Origin: Anaerolineales bacterium
GTDB taxonomy: Bacteria; Chloroflexota; Anaerolineae; Aggregatilineales; UBA2796
Direction of reading: 5' to 3'
NCBI GenBank assembly: GCA_015075625.1
Contig: JABTTZ010000003.1
Location: 124,001 to 188,000 of the forward strand
Length of the DNA: 64,000 bases
A program made the translations under genes and the position numbers. A model generated the notes under the pieces. That model did not search any database. It saw only the letters and a program-made list of their open reading frames with translations, and was not told where the DNA came from. Of the stretch, positions 32,393 through 39,079 are shown in pieces. Each line of letters opens with the position of its first letter. The first letter of the stretch is position 1.

Positions 32393-32755
32393 GCTCAAGC
32401 TCACCTCGGTGATCGCGCCCCGTTTCGGCGGGGTGAGGAAAGTCCGCTCTCCATAGAGCGCGGTGCTGGCGAATCGCCAGGCGGGGTAACCCGACGGCAA
32501 AGTGCCACAGAGAAGTGCAGTGCTGTCGCAAGGCAGCGAGGGTGAAACGGTGGTGTAAGAGACCACCAGCGCCGCCAGCAATGGCGACGGCTAGGCAAAC
32601 CCCACCGGGAGCAAGGTCAAGCAGAAGTGAGGGGCGGCTCGTCCCGTTATCAACTTCGGGTAGACTGCTAGAGGCGTCCGGGTAACCGGCGTCCCAGAGA
32701 GATGATCACCACCCTGCAAAGGGGACAGAAAGCGGCTTATCGGTGGGCTTGGGCA
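32393..32755 (+). ncRNA. rnpB: RNase P RNA (bacterial type A-like)
   Basis: The ends pair as helix P1: GCTCAAGCTCACC at 32393-32405 with GGTGGGCTTGGGC at 32742-32754. The conserved GAGGAAAGTCCGCTCTCC lies near the 5' end, and AGAGAGATGATCACC with GACAGAA and GGCTTAT near the 3' end, as in bacterial RNase P RNAs. The length, about 363 nt, is normal. It lies between the ferredoxin and the second MITE copy. An AATTTT tract follows P1. Confidence 0.95.
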
Positions 32756-38154: not shown

Positions 38155-38309
38155 TTGTAGGGGGGTTGCGCCCCGATGCCACCCATCACCATGAATTCTT
38201 AGACCCCTTGTGGCAAGAAATCGACAGGGATTGACATTGATATATCTCTCGCCTAGAATCCAATTGTTCAGTTGCCCCCGTAGCTCAGAGGATAGAGCGA
38301 CGGTCTTCT

Positions 38310-39005
38310 CTTATGGGGCTTGATGCGAGAAATCTCATCAATGTAAGTAGTCAAATTCGGTGAAGGCTAAAGGGACAAAAGATGGTTGTCGAGTTCCCAA
38401 TGATGATTGGGACATAAAGCCATCAAGTTATCAATGGCATTGATCTCTGAGAGCAAGGAATCAGGAAAAAACTCGATATAGATCGTATATGACAAACTTC
38501 GTAATGCCTGTCGTATCCACATATGGCACAACATTGCGGTTTGCTAGAGCGACGATAGAGTTGTCTCGCCCATGATCTGATTTGAGAATTAACCTGATAC
38601 CTTCTTTTGCCTTGAATACTTGATAGCGTTATCGTTTCTAGTCGCCTCAGAAACTCATTTCCATGTCGTTTTGCCAGCAAGGTTTGTAGTATGTTCTACC
38701 TCTAAAGTAAGGATTGCCACAACAACCACAAGCCGCACTTTGGCTTCTTTTAGGGAAAAGACTGTTGTTGTGAGTGCTGCACATGACCTTGAGCAAAATT
38801 TCGGATTTAGTGTTTCTGTACCACAGACAAGACAATGCATACTGTCTCCATGTTAATACCGAGCCAAGTAATCGGAACAAAGGACTCATGATAGTCCTGT
38901 TTCGTTTAAAGGTGTAGAGACTAGACGGCTACCACCTAAAAAACCTTTTACGAGGGTGCATGGTGAAGGTATAGTCCACAGAGTGTGGAAACACACACAA
39001 ATGTG
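38310..39005 (+). other. Group I intron in the tRNA-Arg anticodon loop (after U36)
   Basis: About 696 nt, between U36 and A37 of the tRNA, with U before the 5' site and a terminal G (39005). Core pairings I could find: P2 near TGATGCGAG/CTCATCA (38320-38340); P3 GTAGTC (38347-38352) with GGCTAC (38927-38932); P7 GACTA (38919-38923) with TAGTC (38972-38976); P8 CACC (38933-38936) with GGTG (38962-38965); P9 CCACA/TGTGG. The strings GTAGAGACTAGACGG and AAGGTATAGTCCA match the R and S elements. P1 pairing is weak by eye. Confidence 0.88.
38367..38840 (-). pseudogene. HNH homing endonuclease, frameshifted, antisense within the intron
   Basis: Read on the minus strand from ATG 38840 (GGAG 5 nt before it). 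Frame 1 gives MHCLVCGTETLNPKFCSRSC; a shift then gives HNNSLFPKRSQSAACGCCG; a second shift gives YRRSSKPQCCAICGYDRHYE and VCHIRSISSF; a third, at a T6 run, gives EINAIDNLMALCPNHHWELD with stop at 38367. CAICG, CHI and NHHWELD are the conserved HNH elements and zinc cysteines. About 155 codons in all, with at least three frame breaks, so it is inactive unless the breaks are sequencing errors. It uses the strand opposite to the tRNA and intron. Confidence 0.85.
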
Positions 39006-39079
39006 AAACCGCAGGTCACAGGTTCGAATCCTGTCGGGGGCATATCCTCAACCCACCGCCAAAGGAGTCCTCACATCGC

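Follow-up and report, generated by a model that had tools for sequence, protein, structure and literature searches.

A group I intron carrying a putative antisense HNH endonuclease remnant in a bacterial tRNA-Arg(UCU) gene

As far as could be checked, the tRNA-Arg(UCU) gene of this Anaerolineales bacterium is interrupted by a real group I intron, which has a tRNA host new for its kind and holds an unusual antisense endonuclease remnant. The stretch of DNA that was analyzed, here called the window, is 64,000 nucleotides long, and its relevant features are shown in Table 1. Judged from the sequence, we consider it very probable that a group I intron, apparently of the IC3 (Azoarcus) type, lies in the sole tRNA-Arg(UCU) gene of the genome, that it would be removed by splicing, that it was once mobile, and that it probably derives from a tRNA-Arg(CCU) intron.

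The split tRNA gene and the intron fold

In the unspliced DNA, ARAGORN found no tRNA at this locus; its scan of the whole window gave a tRNA-Leu(CAA) only, and its intron mode called the split wrongly. The exact removal of 696 nt, with a predicted ligated exon junction of GGUCUUCU joined to AAACCGC, yielded a cloverleaf with the anticodon UCU that ARAGORN reported as tRNA-Arg(tct). A genome of the same genus (G400) has an uninterrupted tRNA-Arg(UCU) gene that is 95% identical over 73 nt, and its exons abut exactly at the predicted junction. These two results agree with the preliminary description, which had proposed a tRNA-Arg(UCU) host and an insertion between U36 and A37 in a Chloroflexota-like genome; the guess about the genome was also right. 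The gene is uninterrupted in five other genomes of the family as well, so the intron is optional. Outside the tRNA, no gene order shared with G400 was found. The window also contains a class A RNase P RNA (32396-32755, 244.9 bits).

Searching all 5 contigs of the genome (4.68 Mb) with a tRNA covariance model produced 51 matches, and ARAGORN called 49 of them as intact tRNAs. They covered all amino acids, with the Arg anticodons CCU, CCG, ACG, and UCG, and none of these 49 was a second tRNA-Arg(UCU); the genome is 98.5% complete, and parts of it may be missing. The remaining matches are the split gene and a piece that resembles a truncated tRNA-Cys (L049, G000:C2:1164461-1164514). The gene thus appears to be single, a point that the preliminary description had proposed to check.

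Table 1. Features of the split tRNA-Arg(UCU) gene and its intron, in window coordinates
Feature	Position	Strand	Details and basis
Near-consensus sigma-70 promoter TTGACA-17-TAGAAT, ahead of the tRNA gene	38231-38259	+	11/12 matches; consensus match only
5' exon, tRNA-Arg(UCU) nt 1-36, ending in anticodon U34 C35 U36	38274-38309	+	GCCCCCGTAGCTCAGAGGATAGAGCGACGGTCTTCT; 97% identity to the uninterrupted G400 gene
Group I intron, IC3/Azoarcus-like, 696 nt, between U36 and A37, omega G at 39005	38310-39005	+	Rfam, covariance model, pairing
Internal guide sequence GGGG	38315-38318	+	P1 with exon: U36.G, C35-G, U34.G, plus intron C1-G
P2 hairpin UUGAU..GAG/CUC..AUCAA	38320-38341	+	Sequence
P3 5' strand GUAGUC, partner 38924-38925 and 38929-38932	38347-38352	+	100% pairing in the four outer pairs, of which three show compensatory changes
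P4 5' strand, partner 38857-38862	38357-38362	+	98.8% paired
Putative HNH homing endonuclease pseudogene in L5, antisense	38367-38840	-	ATG at 38840, stop TAG at 38369-38367; 474 nt
P5 5' strand GGGACA, partner UGUCUC 38843-38848, flanking the L5 insert	38372-38377	+	Sequence
Shine-Dalgarno-like GGAG within the P5 3' strand, 5 nt ahead of the antisense ATG	38846-38849	-	Sequence; also in L110
P7 5' strand GACUA, partner UAGUC 38972-38976	38919-38923	+	100% paired
P8 5' strand CACC, partner GGUG 38962-38965	38933-38936	+	98.2% paired
P9 hairpin	38983-38996	+	Compensatory changes in 4/5 pairs
3' exon of tRNA-Arg(UCU), first nt A37, no encoded CCA	39006-39042	+	AAACCGCAGGTCACAGGTTCGAATCCTGTCGGGGGCA; 92% identity to the G400 gene

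Searched alone, the stretch matched the Rfam model Intron_gpI (RF00028) at 38298-38998 with 44.0 bits (E 8.7e-10), and the endonuclease insert was located between model positions 80 and 81. The covariance search suggested in the preliminary description gave a match that stays below the gathering score of 50, which was also missed in the Rfam scan of the whole window. The HEG-free compact relatives described below pass this score with 63.3 and 64.9 bits.

The fold was evaluated in 14 related introns at the U36/A37 site with a P3-P9 structure, including the pseudoknot, whose helices were labeled after the established layout of group I introns. In these introns, 96.2% of the cells of the structure were paired, and the covariation score was 0.404. 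Shuffling lowered the score to 0.127 (0/500), and sliding to 0.061 or less. The conserved group I core (P3/P7 pseudoknot, P4-P6, P8, and P9) is present, and so are two group I hallmarks: P1 has the pair U36.G at the 5' splice site, and the intron ends in a G (G39005). The Rfam match, the pairing counts, and the covariation bear out the earlier proposal of a group I intron with P3, P7, P8, and P9 pairings. The short P1 contains two G.U pairs; P10, with one clear pair, is weak. All CCU and UCU introns have the guide GGG, and most CAU introns have GUG; this variation with the host anticodon is expected of a real P1. In a core tree, the intron groups with the CCU and CAU introns at U36/A37, and its core is probably Azoarcus-like, of the IC3 type.

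In the model that we propose, the intron would fold after transcription and its guide GGG would pair with the anticodon UCU, placing the 5' splice site at a G.U pair. Guanosine would attack after U36, the omega G39005 would mark the 3' site, and ligation of the exons would give a tRNA that reads AGA. The conservation of the intron and the single copy of the gene suggest that splicing takes place.

The antisense HNH frame and alternative readings

The insert also holds a putative HNH homing endonuclease gene, decayed here, which was absent from the preliminary description and occupies about 460 nt (474 nt from ATG to stop), two thirds of the insert. There is no intact HNH reading frame. The conserved path of the antisense frame runs 0, 2, 1, 0: the frame shifts three times, always with the same sign and once within an A6 run, and the net shift is zero; no in-frame stops occur along it. 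The read-through protein matched HNH_2 with 36 bits (cut-off 21; E 6e-9) and, over its full length, shared 49% identity with the protein of the unbroken antisense frame of the intron in genome G473 (L110). Both in the window and in G473, the frame begins at the P5 3' strand, has GGAG in that strand, and ends in a stop that is the complement of the P5 CUA (TAG in the window). The frame being bounded by both P5 strands in the two introns, the gene fills L5 exactly. The intron was probably once mobile through this antisense HNH gene, for which the 3' strand of P5 would have served in ribosome binding and the 5' strand would have supplied the stop codon. With the gene decayed, the intron is probably now immobile, and it may have been kept because its precise loss would be rare.

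Three shifts of the same sign, one in an A6 run, mean that some of them could be assembly errors. An HNH gene that is still functional, whose frame changes are all such errors or are recoded, in an intron that is still mobile, would fit the single-base shifts that add up to zero, the conserved path without stops, and the intact frame of G473. Nevertheless, the long neighboring genes on the contig are unbroken, and three shifts in 474 nt are far over the background; we regard a functional endonuclease as improbable.

It is very unlikely that the tRNA gene is dead, with a degenerate intron that does not splice and AGA read otherwise. AGA is indeed very rare (in five genes, it accounts for one Arg codon out of 155) and the Rfam score is under the gathering score, but all core helices are intact and covarying, the exons are 97% and 92% identical to the intact gene of the same genus, and the genome has no other UCU gene, while tRNA-Arg(CCU) should read AGG only. 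Even less credit, hardly any, can be given to a random or mobile insertion with a tRNA-like junction produced by chance and no group I intron. ARAGORN left the gene uncalled, as such an insertion would predict; the Rfam match, the covariance relatives, and the core tree all speak against it, and the covariation and the empty site refute it.

Related introns, their hosts, and their endonucleases

BLASTN with the 3' core and exon against 400 genomes of the phylum returned tRNA matches only and no introns. Since it was useless for finding introns, a covariance model was used instead. A scan of the genome collection for the pattern of an intron end plus T arm gave 18 loci, among them an intron of 213 nt that occupies the same position in the tRNA-Arg(UCU) of Chloroflexi bacterium CFX4 (L050), cyanobacterial tRNA-Arg(CCU) introns, and CAU-tRNA introns of Anaerolineales and gammaproteobacteria. 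The model was built from ten sequences (the window and nine loci) and run over the order (154 genomes) and the class (396 genomes); a host was assigned when the acceptor, D, anticodon, and T stems paired after removal of the intron. The distinct introns were 24 in CAU tRNAs (Ile2/Met) and 19 in fMet tRNAs, all at U33/C34; ten in cyanobacterial Arg(CCU), seven in CAU, and four in Arg(UCU) tRNAs at U36/A37; eight in Asn(GUU) at U35/U36; and one in Arg(UCU) at U34/C35.

The four Arg(UCU) introns at U36/A37 are those of the window (696 nt), CFX4 (G409, 213 nt), G489 (210 nt), and G473 (717 nt). They belong to two families of one order; those of 210 and 213 nt are compact, and in the 717-nt intron the same loop holds an antisense HNH that is intact. 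A different group I intron, of 265 nt, is found in another genome of the window's own family, between U34 and C35 of tRNA-Arg(UCU) (L105, G401:C98:8467-8737). The group I-like introns of tRNA-Asn(GUU) at U35/U36 occur at eight loci of the same class and in two viral contigs (L321 and L324).

The UCU introns at position 36 formed a clade in the core tree (UFBoot 93), sister to the cyanobacterial CCU introns (joint 97); elsewhere in the tree, host and site mostly determined how introns clustered. The tree supports the relationship to tRNA-Arg(CCU) introns that had been noticed from the insertion site. At position 34, the guide GGG meets CCU with a C-G pair and UCU with a U.G wobble, so that a move between the two hosts needs no change of guide. 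We infer that the direction was from tRNA-Arg(CCU), and that the intron probably reached the UCU gene at the homologous site.

Endonuclease genes are arranged in several ways in other introns. Six CAU introns at U33/C34 carry an HNH gene antisense in L1, the P1 loop. Sense frames were found in six fMet introns (PD-(D/E)XK type by likeness), three Arg(CCU) introns (a long ORF), and one Asn intron (HNH). At one Chloroflexi locus (L058), a CAU-tRNA intron core follows a sense HNH-like fragment and is apparently rearranged. At locus L230 (G646:C56), a CAU tRNA with a group I intron of 199 nt is followed, after about 60 nt, by a free HNH gene in convergent orientation. Free-standing relatives of the Arg(UCU) HNH adjoin intact tRNA-Arg(CCU) genes in three genomes (G485, G500, and G701), and some of them have an extra N-terminal stretch that resembles a zinc ribbon.

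Viral contigs with an HNH relative had a tRNA at most 60 nt away in 40 of 78 cases, and in 22 of these 40 it was tRNA-Arg(UCU); the counts are not unbiased, as the query is itself a tRNA-Arg HEG. Splits of tRNA-Arg(UCU) at U34/C35 were seen at 15 viral loci, with inserts of 200-727 nt. Several of these inserts have a sense endonuclease-like frame, and the introns of L317 and L323 exceed the Rfam threshold. Two, with intron-like inserts of 726-727 nt (L259/L333 and L309), have an intact antisense HNH. The viral antisense HNHs fall in another clade than those of Chloroflexota (99/92 split), so capture was probably independent in the two groups. At the DNA level, the intron locus of the window showed no resemblance to annotated phages.

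A more general scheme, to which we give an even chance, is that an HNH family adjoining tRNA genes, mostly tRNA-Arg, was repeatedly captured antisense by the L5 of tRNA-Arg(UCU) introns, at least twice (at U36/A37 in Chloroflexota and at U34/C35 in viral contigs), and that a second family sits antisense in the L1 of Chloroflexota CAU introns. The antisense orientation would then be a general solution in bacteria and phages, in which P5 would also provide the ribosome-binding site and the stop codon.

Significance and comparison with known introns

The bacterial tRNA intron hosts named in the open-access papers covered are Leu(UAA), Ile(CAU), Arg(CCU), and fMet, and tRNA-Arg(UCU) now joins them. 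In those papers we found no report of a group I intron in tRNA-Arg(UCU), no precedent for one in tRNA-Asn, and no bacterial group I intron with an endonuclease gene in antisense. Rfam probably flags the CFX4 intron automatically at its 63.3 bits and the search covered open-access papers only, so "unreported" is provisional. The 22-49 nt "group I introns" of cyanobacterial tRNAs (PMC5733544) were rejected as a precedent because they are too short for that class of intron. According to a 2014 review, all phage introns known by then were in protein-coding genes (PMC3984707). Al-Shayeb 2020 and a 2025 Bastillevirinae paper do not mention tRNA introns, one title cited in the latter aside.

The jump between CCU and UCU has a simple sequence reason, one guide serving both anticodons by wobble. 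Because intact, broken, and absent HNH versions occur in one order and free-standing relatives lie beside intact tRNA-Arg genes, it becomes possible to test how an intron gains an endonuclease. Such split tRNA genes also escape tRNA finders; the UCU tRNA went unreported by ARAGORN as run.

Like the Synechocystis-type tRNA-fMet intron (PD-(D/E)XK), the present one combines a bacterial tRNA intron with an endonuclease gene; in the fMet type, however, the site is U33/C34 in the Chloroflexota examples found here, and the gene lies in P1 and in sense. It shares its site and probably a near-identical core with the Azoarcus tRNA-Ile(CAU) intron, which has been crystallised, and with the Anaerolineae CAU introns at U36/A37, but the guide is GUG in those, and the CAU introns at U36/A37 were found without an internal endonuclease gene. 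The closest likeness is with the tRNA-Arg(CCU) introns of Agrobacterium, Bartonella (BbgpI), and cyanobacteria, the nearest clade in the core tree, which have an IC3-like core, the U36/A37 site, and the guide GGG, and which measure about 210-260 nt without an endonuclease gene, as do the compact UCU relatives. The host anticodon differs, being UCU with U34.G in P1, and so does the endonuclease gene: the HNH frame in L5 is antisense, whereas a long ORF in sense (LAGLIDADG type by eye) occurs in three CCU introns of Symploca. Splicing of the Bartonella tRNA-Arg(CCU) intron occurs both in vivo and in vitro (PMC7717549).

Antisense endonuclease genes have been described in nuclear rDNA introns (PMC9548176), and the arrangement now extends to bacteria and viral contigs. 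The introns of Didymium and Diderma (I-DirII and I-DsqI; PMC9548176) have the endonuclease gene antisense to the group I ribozyme, as here, but they are eukaryotic rDNA introns with a His-Cys box enzyme, encoded in P9.2 in I-DsqI, whereas the intron of the window is in a bacterial tRNA and its putative HNH gene is in L5.
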